From a virus: a stretch of 32,844 bases of DNA. Under the pieces are notes generated by a model. That model was not told the DNA's origin and ran no database searches. It saw only the letters and a list, made by a program, of their open reading frames with translations. The stretch is from positions 56,414 through 89,257 of IMG/VR virus record IMGVR_UViG_3300001351_000005. One strand, 5' to 3'. The position numbers were made by a program, and so were the translations under genes. Below are positions 7,701 to 32,213 of the stretch, in pieces; the first letter of the stretch is position 1; the number at the start of each line of letters is the position of its first letter.

Positions 7701-10700
7701 CATATTACTTATGTCAAACTTAGTTGAGTTTAACCAAAATCTTGGATAAGGTATGTTTACATATAAACTATAATCAAATGCATGACCGTTGGGTTGCCCT
7801 TTTAAGAAGTTTGTAAAAATAGGCATTATACATTTTTCAGTATATCTATTAATTGACACATCTCCACTAAAGATTGGTTTAGATGTATATAAAGCTTCAG
7901 GTGGTAAGTTATTATCTAATAACTCAACACAACCTCTCATTTGTATTTGCTTTATACCATCTAATTGACCATACTGATTATCAAAGTTAAACTTTAAAGC
8001 ACCGTATAATGCAGATATACTTGTTTGTCTTTCTGCTTTACTAAAGTCTTTAATTAAAGAATTTTGAAAATCATTAACGCTACCATCAGTTCTTACATAA
8101 CCACCAAGTGCAAAACGTGAATAATCAACTGTAGTAGGTATAGCTAATTCTTTTTCTGTTGAAACAGCTACAGTAGATGGTCTAAATAAATTATTAATTT
8201 TATATTTAATACCATCAAAAGTTTGAAATGATGATCCTATATAATTAGAATCATTATTTTTTGTTCTAAATATATCGTTCTGATTAATTTTTGCAAAATT
8301 ATTAAAGAATCCAGTAGAGTTATATTTTAAAACAAAGTCATAAAAACTAACCATGTTATAAAATAAATCAATGATTTCATCACCACCTATTGCAATATTC
8401 TTTTGTGCCATTGATACACCAATGATTCCTCTTAGAAGACTTGGCATTGCTGCTTCAGGTTTATCATAAACTGTTCCTTCTTCAATACCACCACCTTGAG
8501 TACCAGGGACTGCAGTTTTTACGAAGTTAGTTGCACCCTGAATATTTAATTGTGTTGATGAAACAATTCCACCTGCATATATATCTGCAAAATCTACAAG
8601 GTCATCTAATAGTGTATCTAATAAAATATCCCATATTGCATTACCTATTGCTAAAGCACCTATTGATGCTGGGGCAGCAGTAAATCCACCTGTTACAGTA
8701 CCACCATTAGTAAAACCTCCAACAAACCATGGTGCATATACTGGATTCAAACCTTGAACCGGTAATGCTTTCTTGTTTGTAGTACCCTGAACAGCATTAA
8801 GAGCATATCCAATTCCTATTACTACTGCAAGAGATGCAGCAGCAGGTCTTAGTAATTTAAATTGTGGGTGATCTTCTGAAGGAGTAAACCTGCCTGCAGA
8901 CTTGCCATGAATGTTACCATATATTTTAGTTTCATATGCATTTAAAAATGGTTTAGCAAACATTAAATCTGGAGCATGAAAAGAAAACACATCCTTTGTA
9001 AATCCCTTTAAAGGTTCATAATGATTTATACTTCCTGTAAAATCTCCTTGATCACAAAAATTCTCTGTGGTTTTATTTCTAGTACCATCTTGAAAAAATA
9101 CATCATGCTGCAAAGAGTTATAAGGATAGTTAGGATACAACCCTTGTGAATTTCCTAGTATATTTTCAGAATCTGGTATATCATATTTACGCATGTTTTT
9201 AAACATACCTTTTGCCAAAATAGATCTTGCTCCTTGTCTAGACCCTCTTAGTATTTCATAACCTACAACATTTTCAATATAAGATCCGTCATTATATTTA
9301 GGTCTACCAATATTAGTAAATTCAACACCTACTAAATTTATATTATCACCATCAGTAGTACTAATATGTAATGGAGAGTTTGCACCCCCTATTGACTCAT
9401 CAGGCATCTTGTGATGTCTTATAGGTTTACCACATAGATTACCCCAAATATCTGGTCTGTTAGATGGATAAAGTTCTGTTGATTCCCAATAGCCCATTTT
9501 ACCTCTTGCAATAACTAAACTATTATCTTCTTGAGGTTCGTTAAGATTTAAATTTGTTGCAGTTGCAGTATTATATACTTTAAATAAAGGTTCTCCATCA
9601 GTATTTAATACATTATCTCCAAATACAATTTCATTCTCCATAGTACCATTATAGTTTTCTGGAGCCCTTCCGGGTATATGATATGAAGAAGATCTTTCAC
9701 CTGTATTATATATCCATCTAATAAAAAATGCATATTGCTCATCACGCATGAAACCTAACTTGTTTCCACCTAATGTGTAATACTTACTAGACAAAGAATT
9801 TATAACCCAATTTGTTTGGATTTGATTTGCAATAGGTTGATAATTAAAATCAAATTGTTCAGTTGGTCCTTGTCTTATTAACCAATCATTTACAACAAAC
9901 ATAGACTCTGACTTTTCATAAGCCGGACTTCTAAGAGGTATTAATTTTAAATCTATAGCAGGTAATGCTGGATCTATAAAATCAATATTAATGTCTGATT
10001 GTTCTGTGCTATATAAACCAATTCTCTTTGCTAGAGTTTGGCCTTGGTTTCTCATTAATAGTACTAATTCATAATAATAATAATCTTGATCTAAATTAGA
10101 AACTTTTATATTTAAAGAACTATCTGAACCTTGGTGACTAAATAAAGATTGTAAATTAGATATACCAATATAGTCTGTAACTTTTTGTTCATTCTCTACA
10201 TATGCAATAAATGCTTGATACGTTCCATTACGTAACATACCACCGTCTGTTGCTTTATCTAATTCTATACAAGGTGTATCTACTAGTGGAGCTAATCTTA
10301 TTTCTTGACAATCTAATTTTTTAGGTTCTATGATTTCATATCTAACACACGGGTCTCCATCAATATCCGGACCTGTAATTTGAACTTTTTTCCAGGGTAT
10401 ATCATCTATATTTAAAGCTCTTGATGGATTGTTTGCATCATCCCAATATACTTCCCAAGTACAATCAAAATTTTCTTTTGCTGCACCTGTAATTAAATGT
10501 TTTTTAGTAAAATTTAAACACGGGTCATTAACTAATGTAGTGTACTTACATTCACTATCATCAAACCTTCCTATTTCAGAACTTACATTATCAGTTGAAA
10601 AAACTATCCACTCATCACCATATCTATGTATAGCACCTATAACTGTATATGGAATAACACCACATGATAAGTTTGATGGCTCATTGCCAATCATTCCTAT

Positions 10701-11797: not shown

Positions 11798-12472
11798 TTA
11801 AGTTCTTGCTATGTTACGTTTGTTATCTGAATCTTCAGATGGTATTTGTAATGTACCTGACATAGTAGCAATAACTTGGCTTTCTATTTCTGCAAACAAT
11901 GCTTCTGGTATGTAAATTTCTTGCTCATATCTAGGGGTGCAATCATTTTCTGTATCACAATCCCATTTAGTTATATCTGAGTCAAATACACCTTCTACTT
12001 TAATTGCATCCCATGCAATGTTTGGACAGTAGATGTAACCATCTAACCACCAAAAATATAATGTTTTGTTATATCTAAAAGAAGTACTTTTTGTTAATGA
12101 TGTATATGTACCAGGTTGGGTTCCTTGCAGCTCTTGTGAACCATCTATTGAACTAATGGTACGTATTAATGGACCCCAGTAACCTTCAAACATTGAAGGT
12201 AATCTATGTTTTGAACGTTTTATTGTACAACCACTTTGTATTCCAGCACAATGAGCTTCAACTTTATCTACTTCAATTAATTCTACATATGGTAATGTTT
12301 TCCATACTGAATTAAATTTTAATAATTTATTTGCATAATCTTGCCTTCTCATTAAAAACTGAGCATACTTTTCAATTAAGCTATAGATATATCTATCAGT
12401 GACAAAAGCATCTTGAACTCCTGCTTTTACTTGGCCTCTAATTCTTGATACTACGTCTGCTATTGTTGCCAT
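11798..12472 (-). CDS. tail-tubular/ring-type structural protein
   Basis: A 224-aa protein. The N-terminal helix region (IADVVSRIRGQVKAG, then VTDRYIYSLIEKYAQFLMRR) followed by a beta-rich body with paired cysteines (HCAGIQSGC) and a TLYFWWLDGYIYCPN segment matches the layout I associate with T7 gp11-like tail-tubular or ring proteins of Bacteroidota phages. That assignment is from memory of the family; the sequence directly shows only length, layout and context. It starts 5 bases after the 188-aa conserved gene stops and is followed 11 bases on by the 304-aa ring-type gene. The leader (AAAAATAAAAAAC) has no Shine-Dalgarno. Confidence 0.85.
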   Translation of the reverse strand: MATIADVVSRIRGQVKAGVQDAFVTDRYIYSLIEKYAQFLMRRQDYANKLLKFNSVWKTLPYVELIEVDKVEAHCAGIQSGCTIKRSKHRLPSMFEGYWGPLIRTISSIDGSQELQGTQPGTYTSLTKSTSFRYNKTLYFWWLDGYIYCPNIAWDAIKVEGVFDSDITKWDCDTENDCTPRYEQEIYIPEALFAEIESQVIATMSGTLQIPSEDSDNKRNIART

Positions 12473-12477
12473 GTTTT

Positions 12478-13044
12478 TTATTTTTCAAATTCATTATAAT
12501 ACTTTAATGCTTTAATGGTTTCTTCAGGGTTTTCATCATAAAGATGAGCCACCTTGTATTTATTTTTCATTACTACATATTTGGTCCAATTGATGGGGTA
12601 AGTTTTTGCAACAGTTCTTTTAAAATCTCTGCATGCTACAAATCTCCACAACTCCCTATTTTTAAATCTATATTTAGTTGAGTAATTTGTATAAAATATT
12701 TTACCTAAATTTCCATCTGTTTCCCAGTTTTTATTTTGTAAGACTTTACCATACTGATTTGAAAGAGCATAATTAGTATTCACTGATTTTGATGAAGGAC
12801 ATGTACCAATAAATAGATACCCTAATGAATCAGGCAACTCTACACCATCTCTATTCTCTACTACAGCATTCCAAAGTCTAACATTATATATATTTATTAT
12901 CTTTTTTAATTTAACGTTATCTATGTCAGAGTATAAAGGTTTCTTGTCTTTAAACTCTTTGATTGTTTCTTCATTTAATAACCCCATTCTTTTCTCTCTA
13001 TATCTAGGAGCTTTCAAATCAGGTTTTTTGAAATTGTTGATCAT
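12478..13044 (-). CDS. conserved phage protein of unknown function (KAPRYR type)
   Basis: A 188-aa basic protein. It begins with a short segment containing KPDLKAPRYREKRMGLLN, has a central LGYLFIGTC and a conserved-looking NYSTKYRFKNRELWRF followed by FKRTVAKTYP. I recall closely similar proteins beside ring-protein genes in crAss-like and other Bacteroidota phages, where function is unassigned. It is rich in Lys, Arg and aromatic residues, which would suit nucleic-acid or structural contacts, but no catalytic motif is evident. It is the first gene after the terminator at 13066-13101 and probably leads the transcript for the two ring-type proteins, the muzzle-like protein and the giant wall-processing protein. 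Confidence 0.85.
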   Translation of the reverse strand: MINNFKKPDLKAPRYREKRMGLLNEETIKEFKDKKPLYSDIDNVKLKKIINIYNVRLWNAVVENRDGVELPDSLGYLFIGTCPSSKSVNTNYALSNQYGKVLQNKNWETDGNLGKIFYTNYSTKYRFKNRELWRFVACRDFKRTVAKTYPINWTKYVVMKNKYKVAHLYDENPEETIKALKYYNEFEK

Positions 13045-14445: not shown

Positions 14446-15006
14446 TTATGCTGACAGAGTTGAAATAAGTATTTCAATTGGTTTACATCCTGTGTTACCA
14501 GCATCTACAACTTTAACTTTATATGCTGTACTAGCAGTTAAATTTGTTATAGTAAAGTTATTTACTGTAGGTACAATAGGTCCTAGTGGATTAGCTAATG
14601 TCCATCCTACAGGTGATATTTGTTCATCAACATATACATTTAAACCTGTGCTGTTACTCCATATTCCATCCCATATAACTGAAATAGTACTACCTGTTAC
14701 TGCACCTGCATAAACATTATATGGATCATGTTGTACATCATTTGAAGTACATGTCCCAAGGCCGTTAGATAATATCATAGAAAACTTTTGTATAATAGAA
14801 TCTAATCTTTCACCAGAAGTTATAACTATTCTACTACCAGGATCACCTATTTGAAAAGATGTTCCACAATAGCTTACACATGAAGCACACTGCACATCAT
14901 CACACCTTTCACTACCTGTACTACAATCAGTATAGGTACATGCATTAGTTATTGCTGTGTCAGCACAACTACATTTTTGACTACATTTTGTACAATTACA
15001 TGCCAT
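14446..15006 (-). CDS. Cys-rich virion protein with FN3-like C-terminus
   Basis: A 186-aa protein. The first 47 residues hold 11 cysteines in CxC, CxxC and CxxxC spacings (C3, C5, C8, C12, C14, C23, C28, C35, C40, C43, C47), a pattern suited to zinc or disulfide clusters. A segment SGERLDSIIQKFSMILSN follows, a short helix also recalled from other Bacteroidota phage fibre proteins. Residues about 98-186 form a fibronectin type III-like beta-sandwich (TISVIWDG, then TNLTASTAYKVKVVD). It starts 26 bases after the 744-aa fibre gene and is the last gene before a strong terminator. It is probably a small fibre or fibre-attachment protein; a free signalling protein is unlikely given the context. 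No signal peptide is visible. Confidence 0.85.
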   Translation of the reverse strand: MACNCTKCSQKCSCADTAITNACTYTDCSTGSERCDDVQCASCVSYCGTSFQIGDPGSRIVITSGERLDSIIQKFSMILSNGLGTCTSNDVQHDPYNVYAGAVTGSTISVIWDGIWSNSTGLNVYVDEQISPVGWTLANPLGPIVPTVNNFTITNLTASTAYKVKVVDAGNTGCKPIEILISTLSA

Positions 15007-15032: not shown

Positions 15033-17267
15033 TTAGGTTAATGGAGTACTGCCTCCACAACCAGATATTATTAAACTAGATATTGTACTTGGATCAGTGC
15101 TCGTAGTATACGTAGCTCCTGTTCCAGTTGCAAGCTCTCTCCAAGGATATACTGCTGGACTTATTGTTCCACCATTATCCCAATCCATATTAACACCTGC
15201 TCCCATACAGAATACTTTAATTCCATTATTATTACATGTTGTTATCAATGACAGGATTCTAGAGTATGTTGTCATATTCATTATATCTTCATCTCCTCCC
15301 GGTAAATTATCTGTAATTAGTATAACATATTTTGCAACATTGTTTCTAAATGCTCCATTAAATGCAGCACCTCCAACTACTTGTTGTAGTGCTAAATCCA
15401 TTGGTTCAGCTCCACCTGCTCCTGATCCCATGTTAACACAAGTACCATCTACACCTCCAGCTAATTTATTTAGCTGAGTTGTAAATGCAGTTCCGTTATC
15501 ATTGGCAAACATTTCCCAAGCAGTATATATTAAATTAGTTCCGGCAGAACCAGCAACAACTAATCTTTGTGTTGTTGGAAGAACTGTGTAATCAGCACAA
15601 GTACCATAATTTGGATCTCCACTAGTTTCATCTACAGTAGTTAAACCTATTCTATAATTATTTGATCCTGATGAAGAATCTATTGTACTTACTAAATTAG
15701 CCGCTCCTGATTGTATTGTTTGAATTTGAGATGTCATACTACTTGTATAATCTACTAAGAATACTACATCCATACCTTGACTACATGGTGCATCTGCTGT
15801 GAGTGTTTCAATTGCTATATTTGGACAAACATTTGACCCTCCACTTATAGATACCGTTAATCTAATATTATATACTGTTTGTGGTATTAAACCTGAAAAT
15901 GATCCTGTTACGCTAGATCCTGGGTTGTTTATAGTATCTGTAGCTACAACTGTACCAGAAGAATTAATTACTTCTATAAGGTATGTTGCTGTAGTTCCTA
16001 ATAAATTATTAAATTGGAAATTAAAAGAATTCTGTGTTATACTACTTATAGTCATAGATGGACAAGGAATAATTCCTGTTATTAAACTAGATTGCGTTTC
16101 AACACATGTATCATTTCCATCTGTAACACTAAACTCAACTGTTGCAGTTAGATCTGTAGCAGTATCTAATGATGCTACATTTACACTTATACCTGTAGAA
16201 TTATTCTGTAATGATGATACACTAACAATTTGCTGAGTTGAAACACCTTTAGAATCAACTATTGTGATTTTACTAAAACCTGCACTATCATTAAATGTAC
16301 TAGGTATAGATGAGTTTATAAAGTTAAATACTACGTCTGTTATTAAACCTGTACCACCACTGATAGTATTTGCAGTAGTATATGAGAATATAATTCCATC
16401 ACATCCTCCAGGACAACAATTTGTTTGAATGCTTGTAATAGCTGAATACATATCATCAATCACAACCCATGCGTTTTGCATAGACTGAGCTAATGTAGAA
16501 GCTGAATTATTCCATCCAACTATACCACTATATGATGCATCACTATTTGATAACTGAGTATATGAACCTGTTATTGCAGATTGTGAAATTGCAGAATTTA
16601 TAGCAGATGGAAATCCAACTGCATTTCTTAATTCACAAAACGCACTTTCTAATGCTAGTACAACTACTGAAACATTAGTTAAAACCCCTACATTACTTAT
16701 ACATGTAGGTACAATTTGAGCTTCTACAACAGCACCACTACAAGGTAATACACAAGCTTCTAGTACATCTATTCTTGTATTTAAACTTGTTAATGTTGAA
16801 TTGATTGTATTAATACTTGCTAAATTAGTACATACTTGATTTGCTATAAGTGTAGCAAATTGATCTAATGGAAGTTGAGTTACTGGATTACCGCTTGCAT
16901 CATTATACTGCATACATGCAGGTAATGTCATTATAGGAAGAGAAGCAGTAGATTTATCATTTCCACTACCACTATCTGCATTTAAACATATTTGATTAAC
17001 CATTGCCTGTAAAACAGGAACAAGTTGAGTAGGCGTAGCACCTCTAACATTTAAACAAGTAATATCTAACCCAGTAAGATTAGGGTTCATATCTACACCA
17101 CTTTCTAAAAGGTCACAAACCTTAGTTGCAAGTTTAAATACAACTTCACTAATAGAGTCACCATTACATAGGTCTATACAAGAAATATCTGGCCCTTGCC
17201 ATATTACACAATTAGAAGATATATTATCACATCCATTTGTGGTGCCGCTTGAGTTCGTTGGGATCAT
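15033..17267 (-). CDS. fibre/adhesin with FN3-like domains and C-terminal von Willebrand A domain
   Basis: A 744-aa protein. The N-terminal third contains CVIWQGPDISCIDLCNGD and the helical SISEVVFKLATKVCDLLES, with low-complexity Ser/Thr/Asn-rich segments after it. FN3-like beta domains lie at about 292-400 and 402-490. A vWA domain follows at about 500-735: MDVVFLVDYTSS carries a DxTxS MIDAS motif with D506, and YVILITDNLPGGDED supplies the usual later strand and acidic loop. vWA domains with MIDAS bind ligands through Mg or Mn. The gene is the first after a 129-base spacer with an inverted repeat and a candidate promoter. The role as host-binding fibre is inferred from domain layout and neighbours; no search was run. 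Confidence 0.9.
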   Translation of the reverse strand: MIPTNSSGTTNGCDNISSNCVIWQGPDISCIDLCNGDSISEVVFKLATKVCDLLESGVDMNPNLTGLDITCLNVRGATPTQLVPVLQAMVNQICLNADSGSGNDKSTASLPIMTLPACMQYNDASGNPVTQLPLDQFATLIANQVCTNLASINTINSTLTSLNTRIDVLEACVLPCSGAVVEAQIVPTCISNVGVLTNVSVVVLALESAFCELRNAVGFPSAINSAISQSAITGSYTQLSNSDASYSGIVGWNNSASTLAQSMQNAWVVIDDMYSAITSIQTNCCPGGCDGIIFSYTTANTISGGTGLITDVVFNFINSSIPSTFNDSAGFSKITIVDSKGVSTQQIVSVSSLQNNSTGISVNVASLDTATDLTATVEFSVTDGNDTCVETQSSLITGIIPCPSMTISSITQNSFNFQFNNLLGTTATYLIEVINSSGTVVATDTINNPGSSVTGSFSGLIPQTVYNIRLTVSISGGSNVCPNIAIETLTADAPCSQGMDVVFLVDYTSSMTSQIQTIQSGAANLVSTIDSSSGSNNYRIGLTTVDETSGDPNYGTCADYTVLPTTQRLVVAGSAGTNLIYTAWEMFANDNGTAFTTQLNKLAGGVDGTCVNMGSGAGGAEPMDLALQQVVGGAAFNGAFRNNVAKYVILITDNLPGGDEDIMNMTTYSRILSLITTCNNNGIKVFCMGAGVNMDWDNGGTISPAVYPWRELATGTGATYTTSTDPSTISSLIISGCGGSTPLT

Positions 17268-17396: not shown

Positions 17397-17657
17397 TTAA
17401 GCTTTTTCTAAAGGGGTGTCTTCTTTCTCAATATCAGATATAGTACCATCTTCAAGGCTAATATTAACTGAACCATATTTTGTCTCTAATGATTCACTTA
17501 CAGTTTTCCATTCAGCTTGCAGTTCTGAATGTTTAGATACTAATTGATTCTTAACTAGTTCAGCATTACCTATATTCATAAGTAATGTATTAATTTGATT
17601 TTGAAGATCTTTAACTTCTTCTAATTCCTTTTTAGAAATCTTTTTTGCTTTTGCCAT
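17397..17657 (-). CDS. small coiled-coil protein
   Basis: An 86-aa protein. Residues about 8-62 show heptad-like spacing of Leu/Ile/Val (KELEEVKDLQNQINTLL, then LVSKHSELQAEW), predicting a coiled coil, and the C-terminus is acidic (SVNISLEDGTISDIEKED). I recall similar small phage proteins with a coiled coil followed by a YGSVNI-type tail in marine phages, without assigned function. It lies 54 bases after the Lys-rich 143-aa gene. The leader has AAAACC 8 bases from the ATG (see findings). A fibre chaperone or trimerisation partner is possible, but that is a guess from context. Confidence 0.8.
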   Translation of the reverse strand: MAKAKKISKKELEEVKDLQNQINTLLMNIGNAELVKNQLVSKHSELQAEWKTVSESLETKYGSVNISLEDGTISDIEKEDTPLEKA

Positions 17658-17711
17658 TATAATTGGTTTTTAAAATTTGTATACTCTTCAAAGATAATGA
17701 TATTTTAGAAA

Positions 17712-27677: not shown

Positions 27678-28220
27678 TTAATTTAAAAAGACACATCCTG
27701 AAAAAGATGCAGCAAATGTTATTTTTAATTGTTGTGAACTTATATATTCTACATTACCTACTACTACTGTATTTGCACTATCTACTACTGTTACGGAAGG
27801 ATACTCTCCTAAGTTATGTGTAACTGTCCAAATAGATGACGCTACTTCAAAACATTCTGTATATGTACCTTGATCTGCTAATACTCCTTCTAGGTCAAGT
27901 ATTGTACAAACACTACTTGGTGTCTCAGGACAACTTACACTTGCTTTTAAGTTAATCTTTGCTAAAGGTTCTACAAATACCCCGGCTGTTTCTGTTGCAG
28001 CTACTACTTTATTACTAGATGCATTTTGCCAATCACATAAATCTTTTCTAATAACTGCTAATTCCATATCTGTGTAACAGCATGCTTCAATGCCAAATCT
28101 AATAGATTGAAAATTTGCATATACTTGTTTTGCAAATGTTTGTTCTACATTTATTTGTTTTAGTAGTGCAAGTTCTTTTACTTTTTCAGCATTAGAATAA
28201 GATCTTATTGCTTTAGCCAT
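27678..28220 (-). CDS. small virion protein with fibre-tip-like C-terminal domain
   Basis: A 180-aa protein. The N-terminal half is helical (SNAEKVKELALLKQINVEQ), followed by Cys-rich pieces (EACCYTDMELAVIRKDLCDW). The last about 50 residues (VTHNLGEYPSVTVVDSANTV, then LKITFAASFSGCVFLN) match a widespread small beta domain found at the tips of many phage fibres, usually with a HNLG...P pattern. The start follows the 59-aa gene's TAA by one base. A short fibre or adaptor that presents a binding tip is likely. Confidence 0.85.
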   Translation of the reverse strand: MAKAIRSYSNAEKVKELALLKQINVEQTFAKQVYANFQSIRFGIEACCYTDMELAVIRKDLCDWQNASSNKVVAATETAGVFVEPLAKINLKASVSCPETPSSVCTILDLEGVLADQGTYTECFEVASSIWTVTHNLGEYPSVTVVDSANTVVVGNVEYISSQQLKITFAASFSGCVFLN

Positions 28221-28221
28221 A

Positions 28222-28401
28222 TTATTTATTTCTTAAATCTTGTATCTGTTGCCTAGCCAATTCTCTATTCAAATTACTTGAGGTAGATACATCTGCTTCA
28301 GCTTTTGTTTTACATTGTTTACATACAATAACTCCATTACCTAATGAAGCTTTTTGACATCCACAAGTAAATTGTTTATTACAGTGAGCACAGTTTGCCA
28401 T
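28222..28401 (-). CDS. 59-aa Cys-rich zinc-finger-like mini-protein
   Basis: ATG at 28401, TAA at 28222-28224. The translation begins MANCAHCNKQFTCGCQKASL and continues with VCKQCKTKAEAD; cysteines at 4, 7, 13, 15, 27 and 30 give two CxxC pairs and a CxC. This pattern suits a small treble-clef or zinc-ribbon fold. The rest is a short helical tail. The gene starts 12 bases after the stop of the 191-aa gene and ends one base before the 180-aa start, filling the space exactly. The leader has AAAACC 9 bases from the ATG. It may be a virion or assembly factor; I do not know the function. Confidence 0.85.
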   Translation of the reverse strand: MANCAHCNKQFTCGCQKASLGNGVIVCKQCKTKAEADVSTSSNLNRELARQQIQDLRNK

Positions 28402-28413
28402 TTCTTTTTGGTT

Positions 28414-28989
28414 TTACATTAAATATTTTGAACTAGATCCACAGTCTCCTGATGGACAAGATATTTTATTTAGTCTACTTTTAGCATAGTTATAAAGTTG
28501 CATACCATGTGCAGCAGATTGACAATATTCTACATTGGCAACAGCAGCATCAATAACAGTTCTTATATAACTCATTTCAGCCAATAGTGATTGTTTTTCT
28601 GAATCTGGCTGACAAGCTTGAACTTCTAAATCACATAATACTTCATAATAAGTAGTTAGTAATCTAGTTACTCTTAAATGATTATATTCTACATAAACTT
28701 TAGAGTTAGGTGATACACTATACTTAATAATATAAACACCATCAGGAATCTTTTCTTGTGTAGTTCCACAACCGGTAGTTTGCAAAGCCATTGTACATGC
28801 CGTAAGACACATATCAAAATCTTTATCAACCTTTATAAGAACAGGAACACTAAAGCCTGGGAGAGTAATTAATAACTCTTCACAATCCACAGCAAGCTCT
28901 GAACTATATTGACTTGTATCTTTAATACATAGTAAATCACAGTTGGATACTGTGGGTATTTCTAAACTTAATATATGTTTGCTTGCCAT
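28414..28989 (-). CDS. Cys-rich conserved phage protein, unknown function
   Basis: A 191-aa protein. It has 11 cysteines (17, 21, 36, 61, 65, 74 and five more near 118-185), a conserved-looking core IPDGVYIIKYSVSPNSKVYV and a helical C-terminus (YIRTVIDAAVANVEYC, then MQLYNYAKSRLNKI). I recall similar sequences in other Bacteroidota phages without assigned function. It is the first gene after the strong terminator of the 400-aa gene and has the TTTTGTATATTAT motif 20-40 bases upstream. A virion or head-tail component is likely from position. Confidence 0.85.
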   Translation of the reverse strand: MASKHILSLEIPTVSNCDLLCIKDTSQYSSELAVDCEELLITLPGFSVPVLIKVDKDFDMCLTACTMALQTTGCGTTQEKIPDGVYIIKYSVSPNSKVYVEYNHLRVTRLLTTYYEVLCDLEVQACQPDSEKQSLLAEMSYIRTVIDAAVANVEYCQSAAHGMQLYNYAKSRLNKISCPSGDCGSSSKYLM

Positions 28990-29106: not shown

Positions 29107-30309
29107 TTACCAGTAAGCATTCTCTTCAACAGGAACATCATTACCTTTTGCAGTTGCCCACGCAGATAAAGCATCCATTAGTTTTTCAACTTCTGCTTGT
29201 GCAGCAGCATCAGAACATTTTACATAGATCTTATATACATACTGATCATTATCAAACACTCCAGAAGGATTGTTGAATCTTGGTACAGAATGTTGGATGT
29301 AATATGCTTTGTATGTTGCAGTACGGTCTACAGCAGATAAGAGCTCATCAGACATTTCAATCTCTCTCAATCTAGCACTATCAGCATTTCCTTGGTTATA
29401 AGGAGACTGACGGTATCTTTCTGACATGATTAAATCTCTAACTACTTCTTCACCTTGAGTTTGTTGCATTGAACCTGGAGTTCTTGAAGCAACACCACAG
29501 TCATTACATACTTCACCTGTTTCATCCAATTCAGAAACAATGATTTCAACTGGTTCAGCATTAAAATGATCTCTTGTGTCAAAAGAACAGTTACCAAATA
29601 CAGTATCAACATAGGCTCCAACAAAGTTGGCAGCAGCACTTACTTGGTCAGCAACTGGATCAGTTGAAGGTGTGTAAGTTCCGTCTAAAGCCTCAGCAAT
29701 AGTGTAAGTTGTAGCAACACCTGCTACAGTAGCAACAATACCACCTCCTGATGCTTCAGCAACAAAAGGCTTGATTAATGGATCAGCTAAAGCCATTTGA
29801 GCCATAGTAGCTAGTACTAATACTGGATCAATATACTCTTGTCCATCAATGCAGCAAATGTTTGCTGAATCAGCAATTGCATAAGCATTGTGATTTAAGA
29901 ATCTTAGTGCAGGTGAACCCTTTACATCAATTCTCATAAATTGAGTTTTACCACATGGTGCACAATCAGCTGCTAATGAAAGACTAGCTGTTGCTTGAGA
30001 TGCAGTAAGGCAATTTGCTTGCCATAATCTTGTAATATATCTTGGGTTGATCCCTTTAGATTTTACAGATTCTTTGTACCCACCGTGTCCAGGATTGTTT
30101 CCAATAGTATCTTTAGAATAGAATGAACCTTGTACAACGTAGCCAAGTGCTCCTGCAACAGGTGCTCCTGGTAATGCTACTGATGCCCAAGTGGAATCAT
30201 CTACTAAAGCTACTTGACCAGCGGTAAGAGCGCTTGTTGCAGTACCTGCTGTTGCCAGCGTGCTGTCTGCAATAAACGTCTTGTTAAACGCATGATTAAA
30301 ATAAGCCAT
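29107..30309 (-). CDS. abundant virion structural protein (400 aa)
   Basis: A 400-aa protein rich in Ala, Gly, Asp and Cys, with a motif MRIDVKGSPALRFLNHNAYA (about 126-145) that I recall from uncultured Bacteroidota-phage structural proteins, and VPRFNNPSGVFDNDQYVYKI near the C-terminus. The gene has a dedicated 125-base upstream spacer, the strongest terminator in the window, and visibly more G/C-ending codons than its neighbours, all fitting high expression. Candidates are a major capsid-associated protein or a tail-tube-like protein; I cannot decide. The position between the ring/adaptor-type gene and the Cys-rich 191-aa gene supports a virion role. Confidence 0.88.
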   Translation of the reverse strand: MAYFNHAFNKTFIADSTLATAGTATSALTAGQVALVDDSTWASVALPGAPVAGALGYVVQGSFYSKDTIGNNPGHGGYKESVKSKGINPRYITRLWQANCLTASQATASLSLAADCAPCGKTQFMRIDVKGSPALRFLNHNAYAIADSANICCIDGQEYIDPVLVLATMAQMALADPLIKPFVAEASGGGIVATVAGVATTYTIAEALDGTYTPSTDPVADQVSAAANFVGAYVDTVFGNCSFDTRDHFNAEPVEIIVSELDETGEVCNDCGVASRTPGSMQQTQGEEVVRDLIMSERYRQSPYNQGNADSARLREIEMSDELLSAVDRTATYKAYYIQHSVPRFNNPSGVFDNDQYVYKIYVKCSDAAAQAEVEKLMDALSAWATAKGNDVPVEENAYW

Positions 30310-30434: not shown

Positions 30435-31139
30435 TTAATTATTTCTTTCTGCTGCTTGAACACCTCTTTGTGCTTGATACATATTTTCTATATCACCAGC
30501 AATTAATGCTGCAGTGTCATCTAACATAACTTCTACTAAGTCATCTTTAAATTGACAATTTACATTTGTGGTACTTGTTAATCCTGTATAAGGATCAACA
30601 CAACCTTCTACTTGTATTAGTACAGGTTTTTCATAATAAGTCAATATAGGATTAACAATATTAAAATTGCTAGTCCTATATATTCTTATTGTATTTCCTA
30701 GCATAGTACAAAATGTTTCACCCCAATCAAAATCTGGATTTTTTAATGGATCCCTTAATAACAATGATACATTTGCTTCTTCAGCTAAATATACAGTCAT
30801 TGACCTTGGTGTACAACAATCATCTTTTGCTTGTGTAGTAACACGTTTAAATTCAAGATATGTATCTACTGGAAAATTATTTGACTGAAAGTAATCATCT
30901 GTCTCAGCACCAGTAAGGCTTAACTCTCTAAGTAATGGTTGTAAATCATCTATTCTTTTTTTAGATAATTCATCACCTTCCTTATACATGTTTCCACCAT
31001 GTAGATTTCTTCTACACCACTCTATTTGTGCTTTATTAAAAGCCTCAACAAATTGCCAACACTCTATATTATCATAGTCATTGCTGTCTAGCTTATTAAG
31101 CCTTTGTTTTAATTTAATTAAGAGTGTACTATTTTCCAT
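30435..31139 (-). CDS. ring/adaptor-type structural protein
   Basis: A 234-aa protein. The N-terminus (LLIKLKQRLNKLDSNDYDNI, then ECWQFVEAFNKAQIEWCRRN) is a helical segment that I recall as conserved in head-tail adaptor/ring proteins of crAss-like and related phages. The body is mixed alpha/beta (SLTGAETDDYFQSNNFPVDT, then YLEFKRVTTQAKDDCCTP). It begins 11 bases after the 339-aa gene stops and ends before the spacer of the 400-aa gene. A head-tail ring role is inferred from resemblance and position. Confidence 0.85.
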   Translation of the reverse strand: MENSTLLIKLKQRLNKLDSNDYDNIECWQFVEAFNKAQIEWCRRNLHGGNMYKEGDELSKKRIDDLQPLLRELSLTGAETDDYFQSNNFPVDTYLEFKRVTTQAKDDCCTPRSMTVYLAEEANVSLLLRDPLKNPDFDWGETFCTMLGNTIRIYRTSNFNIVNPILTYYEKPVLIQVEGCVDPYTGLTSTTNVNCQFKDDLVEVMLDDTAALIAGDIENMYQAQRGVQAAERNN

Positions 31140-31150
31140 TAGTTATATGT

Positions 31151-32170
31151 TTATGAATTCCAATATGGTTCTATCTTATCCATTAAAGAAAGAAGTTCAT
31201 CTTCATTATCCGGCTTCTGTAAAAACTCAAGAACTTCAGATGGTCTTTTACCCATTCTGATACCACTATCAATTGGTTCAATCCATCCTCCAGCTTTTGT
31301 TGTAATAAACCTATAATATAAACCATCTTTAATTAATGCTCTAATTTTTAATTCTTCCATATCAAGTTGAGAAACATCTAAAAACTGCTGTGCAGCTCTT
31401 TTTTTGTTTGACTCTCCACCATGACCATTAACGTATGCATCCATGTTTTCATACATAACATCATTGGGTGTATTCTTTGTATACTGTACACTGTCTACAT
31501 CTGCTACTTTAGCTACATACATTAATTTTGTAGGATTAGTATCATACAAACTTTGTAAAGCAGATAAAGCTTTATTCTTTAATTTAGTTAATTCAGTTCT
31601 TGTTGTAAGAGTTTCTTCAACAGTATCTAAATAAAACTTAGGATTATTTTGTGATTTCTTAGCTTCTTTCAATGATCCTGCAACAATAGAAAATCCACCT
31701 GCTCTAATTGCATGAAGTTTAATTCTATCATATGGATCTACTTCACCATCTAAAAACACTGGATCATTACCACATCTTAAACTAATTTTATCCCAAAATT
31801 TAGAGTTATCTGGCTTCATGACAGTTAACTTATTCCAAAAATCTTTATCATCTGGATCAACTACATTTGCAGCTAACTCAGCTTCAAGCTCAGAAACTAC
31901 TTTTCTAATTTCTGCAATTTTAGCCTTTTTTTCTTTGGGAGGTAACATTTTTACTTTTGGATCAAATTCATTCAATCCAGTAATGTACCTCTTCACTCCG
32001 TTCATTTCTAAACATGCAAGTGACTCCTCATGAAATACCCCATCATGTAGGGATAGACCATAAGTTTCTAAACCCATATTTTCCTTATTAGGATTAAAGT
32101 ATGGTCTTATAGCAATAGTGCTGGTCTTTTTTGTATGTTGATACTTTTCAACAATTGTGTAATCTTCCAT
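31151..32170 (-). CDS. conserved structural-region protein, unknown function
   Basis: A 339-aa soluble-looking protein. It starts EDYTIVEKYQHTKKTSTIAI then RPYFNPNKENMGLETYGLSL, has a Lys/Glu-rich coiled segment (about 75-100, PPKEKKAKIAEIRKVVSELE) and a helical C-terminal half with DMEELKIRALIKDGLYYRF and GGWIEPIDSGIRMGKRPSEV. No catalytic motif or membrane segment is evident. It lies between the capsid-side genes and the 234-aa ring-type gene; the leader has AAAACC 6 bases from the ATG. A head-completion or scaffolding-type role is a guess; I do not recognise the family. Confidence 0.85.
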   Translation of the reverse strand: MEDYTIVEKYQHTKKTSTIAIRPYFNPNKENMGLETYGLSLHDGVFHEESLACLEMNGVKRYITGLNEFDPKVKMLPPKEKKAKIAEIRKVVSELEAELAANVVDPDDKDFWNKLTVMKPDNSKFWDKISLRCGNDPVFLDGEVDPYDRIKLHAIRAGGFSIVAGSLKEAKKSQNNPKFYLDTVEETLTTRTELTKLKNKALSALQSLYDTNPTKLMYVAKVADVDSVQYTKNTPNDVMYENMDAYVNGHGGESNKKRAAQQFLDVSQLDMEELKIRALIKDGLYYRFITTKAGGWIEPIDSGIRMGKRPSEVLEFLQKPDNEDELLSLMDKIEPYWNS

Positions 32171-32213
32171 TTTTTGGTTTTTAAAAATTAATAATTATTA
32201 CTCTGGTCAAATT

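Follow-up and report, generated by a model that had tools for sequence, protein, structure and literature searches.

In phi-crAss001, the gene for capsid auxiliary protein gp36 is followed by a homing endonuclease gene and then by the genes for tail-hub proteins gp38 and gp39. These two proteins form the hub on which the tail fibres dock, and disulfide bonds join them to one another as well as to the barrel (PMC10172136). Here we examine a 32,844-nucleotide stretch (the window) at the right end of the IMG/VR virus record IMGVR_UViG_3300001351_000005, which is 89,257 bp long. The phage is crAss-related, and in the window a short frame, zn59, lies between two Cys-rich genes, g191 and g180 (Table 1). 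A preliminary description had proposed this frame as an overlooked gene for a zinc-finger-like protein. The observations below leave us in practically no doubt that zn59 is a true gene, and we give a probability of roughly 0.4 to the reading that its product is a small accessory protein, folded round zinc, that helps virion morphogenesis when fibres are attached.

Table 1. Genes and AAACCAA elements discussed in the text, in window coordinates.
Feature	Position	Strand	Description
AAACCAA before 86-aa ORF	17663-17669	-	Found in a scan of the 89-kb record
86-aa ORF	17397-17657	-	Preceded by AAACCAA; no Pfam match at E up to 0.01
g180	27678-28220	-	180 aa, 7 Cys; conserved N-terminal module; C-terminal domain common to phage PHROGs of unknown function
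zn59	28222-28401	-	59-aa basic protein, CxxC-x5-CGC-x11-CxxC plus a C-terminal helix
AAACCAA before zn59	28408-28414	-	6 nt from the start codon; 5' end overlaps the g191 stop codon
g191	28414-28989	-	191 aa, 11 Cys; constant upstream neighbour of zn59
g400	29107-30309	-	Counterpart of phi-crAss001 capsid auxiliary protein (gp36) by predicted fold
g234	30435-31139	-	Virion structural protein family match phrog_29507 (3.1e-5); position like crAss001 ring proteins
g339	31151-32170	-	Next after the presumed major capsid gene; has the AAACCAA start element
AAACCAA before g339	32174-32180	-	AACCAA in 26/27 distinct upstream regions

Conservation of the zn59 frame and its place after g191

Reading of the sequence confirmed the layout previously described: the frame has an ATG start, 59 codons and a TAA stop (28222-28224), is separated from the end of g191 at 28414 by 12 nt (28402-28413) and from the g180 ATG at 28220 by 1 nt (28221), and encodes six Cys, at residues 4, 7, 13, 15, 27 and 30. 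Its length is by itself no evidence, since plus-strand frames of 61 and 64 aa (TTG starts) and 78 aa (ATG start) occur within the same 4 kb, and conservation of the frame across relatives is what decides that zn59 is a gene. A search with the zn59 protein alone found 53 IMG/VR loci, which together with the window comprise 32 distinct DNA sequences coding for 28 distinct proteins. Compared to the window, pN/pS is 0.05-0.25 in homologs at 83-97% identity with at least one amino-acid difference and 0.23-0.59 in remoter ones, the ratio climbing with distance to about 0.8 for L052 and L053, where dS is greater than 1. For example, zn59 of L006 differs from that of the window by 14 synonymous changes on 34 sites and 3 non-synonymous changes on 140, and that of L009 by 20 synonymous and 6 non-synonymous changes. 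Differences at codon positions 1, 2 and 3 among 21 distinct ungapped copies number 1994, 1388 and 3657 (counts that share ancestry and hence are not independent), and both other forward frames are interrupted by stops in every one of these 21 copies.

The constancy of its position was measured by a neighbour test that leaves the zn59 sequence aside: relatives of g191, of which IMG/VR holds at least about 546-547, were collected, and the ORF downstream of each was then read in two sets of the best 80. In the first set, the closest 80, one locus runs off its contig and a small Cys-rich ORF comes next in 79/79 readable loci; 76 of these fit the strict pattern, and in three the last CxxC is replaced by C-x5-C. 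The second set was gathered around a divergent query, to which its members are 55-100% identical, and 19 of its 80 loci are also in the first; a zn59-like ORF is present in 80/80 (77 strict and, again, three with C-x5-C). In a third set, collected around the lineage that diverges most, zn59 is present in 6/8 loci. The two loci without it, L283 and L284, belong to one lineage in which g191 is followed after 17 nt by a protein that begins with the g180 module, and no zn59 was found elsewhere in these two records, which may be fragments, at E up to 1. Conversely, among 82 loci found with zn59 itself g191 is present in 82 and g180 in 81; the g180 module is 2.1 kb beyond zn59 in L052, and the L053 sequence is cut about 0.7 kb past zn59.

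The frame is thus conserved, under purifying selection and fixed between g191 and the g180 module. That it might be a chance open reading frame has in its favour that this AT-rich window yields short ORFs of such a size at random, but the bias of change towards synonymous sites and third positions and the recurrence of zn59 after g191 in 79/79 and 80/80 loci of two overlapping sets already refute this explanation. The proposal that the frame is a gene is borne out: related loci have the same Cys-rich ORF after g191 with mainly synonymous change, and the absence of a conserved frame from related genomes, which the preliminary description had named as the refuting outcome, did not occur.

Two observations on individual lineages may be added. 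In L052 (6201-10619) and the related L278, L279 and L280 a very large Cys-rich ORF follows zn59, the match to the g180 N-terminal module comes about 2 kb downstream (in L052 inside a 1473-aa ORF), and zn59 still follows g191. Among 17 pattern matches in bacterial genomes there is one zn59 relative, on a phage-sized contig of 114,697 bp (L197, WLWP01000004.1) in a Pseudomonadales metagenome-assembled genome (MAG); this is probably a phage contig binned into the MAG by mistake, and so gives no host.

Probable metal ligands, charge and predicted fold of the zn59 family

Two sets of zn59 proteins, described below, together contain 106 distinct proteins of 38-72 aa, and all keep CxxC, C-x-C and [C/H]xxC. 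In an alignment of 63 distinct proteins C4, C7, C13, G14, C15, Q16, G23 and C30 are invariant, with the qualification that the searches behind this alignment partly required F[TG]CGCQK. Residue 27 is Cys in 48 and His in 15 of the 63, with no third letter, and the other five Cys are fixed. The second g191 set was gathered without the CGC requirement; of its 59 distinct proteins 57 have CGC and two have CNC, with His at residue 27 in 33 and Cys in 26; its counting pattern admitted only C-x-C and only Cys or His at 27, and the three looser loci have CGC. On a g191 tree built by a quick method from 75 rows, the Cys/His choice switches at least five times, and three of these switches are forced by well-supported branches. 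A position that varies between Cys and His alone behaves as a metal ligand does.

An AlphaFold2 model of moderate mean pLDDT (76) and low pTM (0.47) places strands at residues 17-19 and 25-27 and a helix at 28-58. Its fold neighbours are LIM, FYVE, GATA, RING and PHD-like fingers, mostly treble-clef and all weak: the best matches, both at Z 4.2, are 3vd6_C (GATA1; 36 residues, rmsd 1.8) and 7poh_B (ZAD domain; 58 residues, rmsd 2.8), and Foldseek matches have E of at least 0.47. Two features of a treble clef can be followed, an N-terminal CxxC knuckle (C4 and C7 in 63/63 aligned proteins) and, in the model with moderate confidence, a hairpin and then a helix that bears the second ligand pair. 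Ligand pattern, Cys/His exchange and model together argue strongly for a protein folded round one zinc held by Cys4, Cys7, Cys/His27 and Cys30, and zn59 is very probably a zinc binder, as the earlier term zinc-finger-like predicted. It would form a treble clef of knuckle, short hairpin and helix with a basic surface, in which Cys13 and Cys15 would be an extra conserved pair. The earlier label Cys4 suits the four finger-spaced ligands, 4, 7, 27 (or His) and 30; it does not suit the protein as a whole, which has six Cys including the conserved C-x-C at 13/15.

The fold class is a known one, and the family is without a convincing match in the libraries searched: Pfam, PHROGs, NCBIfam and PDB gave weak, scattered matches, where a family not listed is not necessarily absent. 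The LIM domain (PF00412) has two zinc sites and eight ligands, whereas the window protein has seven Cys/His in total and a single modelled finger; PF00412 matched 1 of 28 members, at 0.011. Matches to zf-BED (PF02892) at E up to 1 occur in 18/28 members (best 0.00029), but the window protein scores 18 bits against a curated cut-off of 20.6 and only over residues 17-46. tblastn with zn59 against 50,697 annotated phage records found nothing, and a divergent member gave only E of 2 or more; searches of open-licence PMC papers listed no description of the gene.

Some of these matches bear on whether zn59 acts on the host, for example by mimicking or binding zinc domains of the ClpX or DksA type, with its gene a mere passenger in the late operon. 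Chains listed as ZBD (2ds5, 2ds6 and 2ds7), presumably ClpX zinc-domain chains, appear low in the fold list at Z 2.8-2.9, and DksA/TraR C4 (PF01258) matched 2 of 32 members, at best with E 0.001, and was not listed for the window protein. All such matches are weak, however, and zn59 is strictly linked to g191 and not to early or host-takeover genes, so that we rank a host-directed role last among the functional readings and consider it improbable.

Net charge (K+R-D-E) is positive in 106/106 distinct proteins, with a mean of +5.6 and +3.1 in the finger core, while that of the neighbours is -6 for g180 and -7 for g191. The C-terminal helix motif LELARQQIQDLRNK is found in the lineages nearer the window; other lineages end differently or stop soon past the finger, and several of those without the motif retain both neighbours. 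Contact of this helix with the g180 C-terminal domain was considered and rejected, since L171/L172 and L196 keep the domain without the motif and there is thus no strict link between the two.

The AAACCAA element at gene starts

AAACCAA lies 3-6 nt from the start codons of zn59, g339 and the 86-aa ORF. AACCAA occurs in 25/28 distinct 30-nt regions upstream of zn59 (28 loci chosen for diversity), against a background of 1.2% of 30-mers, and in a wider set it is within 24 nt of the start for 46 of 59 distinct zn59 proteins. Within 30 nt upstream of the other genes, again in diversity-chosen loci, it was found in none: g234 0/27, g400 0/25, g191 0/27 and g180 0/26. Among the 71 genes that a simple ORF picker gives for the 89-kb record, g339, the 86-aa ORF and zn59 score at least 12 and three more score 9-12; on both strands of the record 22 element sites score above 9, most of them not at gene starts. 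The longer TTWAAAACCAA occurs 2-4 times per record in 10/10 records, compared to 0-2 times for a reversed control, and in other records the element also precedes the scaffold-position gene. AAACCAA probably directs the expression of a small group of genes, and may be a non-canonical start signal or one for late expression. Its presence before zn59 is independent support for expression of zn59 as a gene of its own.

These observations are also relevant to the main rival of the accessory reading, that zn59 is a nucleic-acid-binding regulator of late-gene transcription or translation that is merely housed in the virion operon, in the manner of Com of phage Mu, a translational regulator that binds a leader RNA. 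The uniformly positive charge of the family, the weak fold match to DNA-binding GATA fingers and the sharing of the conserved element by the zn59 and g339 starts are as such a regulator would have them, and in one zn59-less record, G011, the copy before g339 is AAACCTT, provided that translation starts at the first ATG. In the same record, however, the scaffold-position gene keeps its element, AAAAACCAA before its ATG; the element is thus not dependent on zn59, and a dedicated AAACCAA binder is rejected as the sole explanation. Com was not among the Pfam families listed for the window protein or the members searched, and a fixed site between two virion-region genes would be atypical of a regulator. 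We place this explanation second, and on balance regard it as unlikely.

Virion-region neighbours, proposed role and known systems

zn59 sits in a run of virion genes downstream of the portal, presumed capsid and capsid-auxiliary genes. In a related 116-kb record the order is GroES, terminase (phrog_6681), portal (phrog_6547), a 441-aa scaffold-position gene and presumed major capsid, and onward from the capsid g339, g234, g400, g191, zn59, g180 and fibre-type genes; the scaffold and major capsid genes are assigned by position. Crassvirales would be recognised by portal, terminase, ring, muzzle and auxiliary capsid genes in order, and some counterparts of these were seen. The portal of the related record is 22-32% identical to those of crAss-like, Cellulophaga and Leptolyngbya phages (among the 20 matches listed), and relatives of ring proteins were found for the phage. 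A model of g400 superimposes on the phi-crAss001 capsid chain 7qof_a with Z 14.9 and rmsd 4.3 over 304 aligned residues, this chain being identified as auxiliary protein gp36 by its 333 residues; profile comparison of g234 with crAss001 gp34 gave a weak match. Several other genes of the region were noted. The window's own record has a GroEL gene (L294:13544-15172; PF00118, 7.7e-78), and a related record, L088, has GroES (12178-12489; PF00166, 4.2e-18) and a further small Cys-rich protein (9795-10124; 109 aa, phrog_13558, 3.9e-7) encoded upstream of terminase. Several virion-region proteins are Cys-rich, among them g186 (14446-15006, minus strand; 13 Cys, 7%, N-terminus MACNCTKCSQKCSC) and g744 (15033-17267, minus strand; 25 Cys), the latter with a VWA match just above its cut-off.

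The accessory reading, which we rank first, is based on the two neighbour tests, the basic charge of zn59 against the acidic g180 and g191, the capsid-auxiliary fold of g400, and the place of the hub genes after the gp36 gene in crAss001. The basic finger would dock on the acidic, Cys-rich products of its constant neighbours, and the C-terminal helix, where present, may assist this docking. Against it stand the survival of g191 and the g180 module without zn59 in L283/L284, the lineages that lack the helix motif yet retain both neighbours, the weakness of the fold matches (Z at most 4.2, pTM 0.47) and the absence of the word 'zinc' from the main text of the crAss001 atlas (PMC10172136). So, too, does the comparison with the hub: g191 as THA (gp38) and g180 as THB (gp39) found no support by sequence, either with single sequences or with profiles of 9 and 7 crAss-like phages, so that the two are putative hub counterparts by position and Cys content only.

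The Cys of these neighbours, 11 in g191 and 7 in g180, also permit a different role for zn59, as a thiol- or zinc-switch helper whose C-x-C guides or protects their disulfide pairing during assembly. The C-x-C is present in all 106 distinct proteins (CGC, or CNC in two), which is beyond the need of a single zinc, and the crAss001 hub and barrel are disulfide-bonded (PMC10172136). But g191 of the zn59-less L283 and L284 retains 10 Cys, so there is no co-loss of zn59 and the g191 Cys; no redox relative was found, the C-x-C might simply serve structure or bind metal, and part of the sampling required CGC while the second-set counting pattern required C-x-C. We consider such a helper rather improbable and rank it third, a little ahead of a host-directed role. 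There is also a slim chance that zn59 is the first member of a novel class of phage assembly factors: a zinc-finger microprotein, its C-x-C pair obligate, that would sit on the fibre-docking proteins encoded next to it and time or proofread their thiol/zinc state (disulfide pairing) before fibre attachment.

Whichever role applies, more than 100 distinct proteins of 38-72 aa, present in nearly all relatives read (79/79, 80/80 and 6/8), form a family with no convincing model in Pfam, PHROGs or NCBIfam, next to a partner with at least 547 IMG/VR relatives. zn59 lies where the capsid genes give way to the fibre genes, and its function may therefore bear on fibre attachment in crAss-related particles.

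Among described systems, phi-crAss001 resembles this locus in that gp38 (215 aa, 11 Cys) and g191 (191 aa, 11 Cys) both come after the capsid auxiliary gene; it differs in that it has no small finger gene there, its gp38 and gp39 overlap, and gp39 has 2 Cys and no similarity to zn59. Leptolyngbya phage Lbo-JY46 is the top-listed portal match among annotated phages (32%) and has a similar gene order and a 174-aa product weakly similar to g191 (48% probability); a pattern scan of its structural region found no zn59-like ORF. With treble-clef fingers (LIM half-domain, FYVE, GATA, the ClpX zinc domain and DksA/TraR C4) zn59 would share, on the evidence of its model, the CxxC knuckle, the hairpin and a helix that starts with the second ligand pair, as well as Cys/His exchange at one ligand, but it has an extra conserved loop C-x-C, the spacing in the window is C-x2-C-x19-C-x2-C, and the window protein has no sequence-family match above a curated cut-off. 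Finally, the one-domain zinc-finger micro-proteins of prokaryotes are likewise single small zinc-finger proteins; those described in PMC6562870 are cellular genes of Haloferax, whereas zn59 is a phage gene at a fixed position in the virion region.
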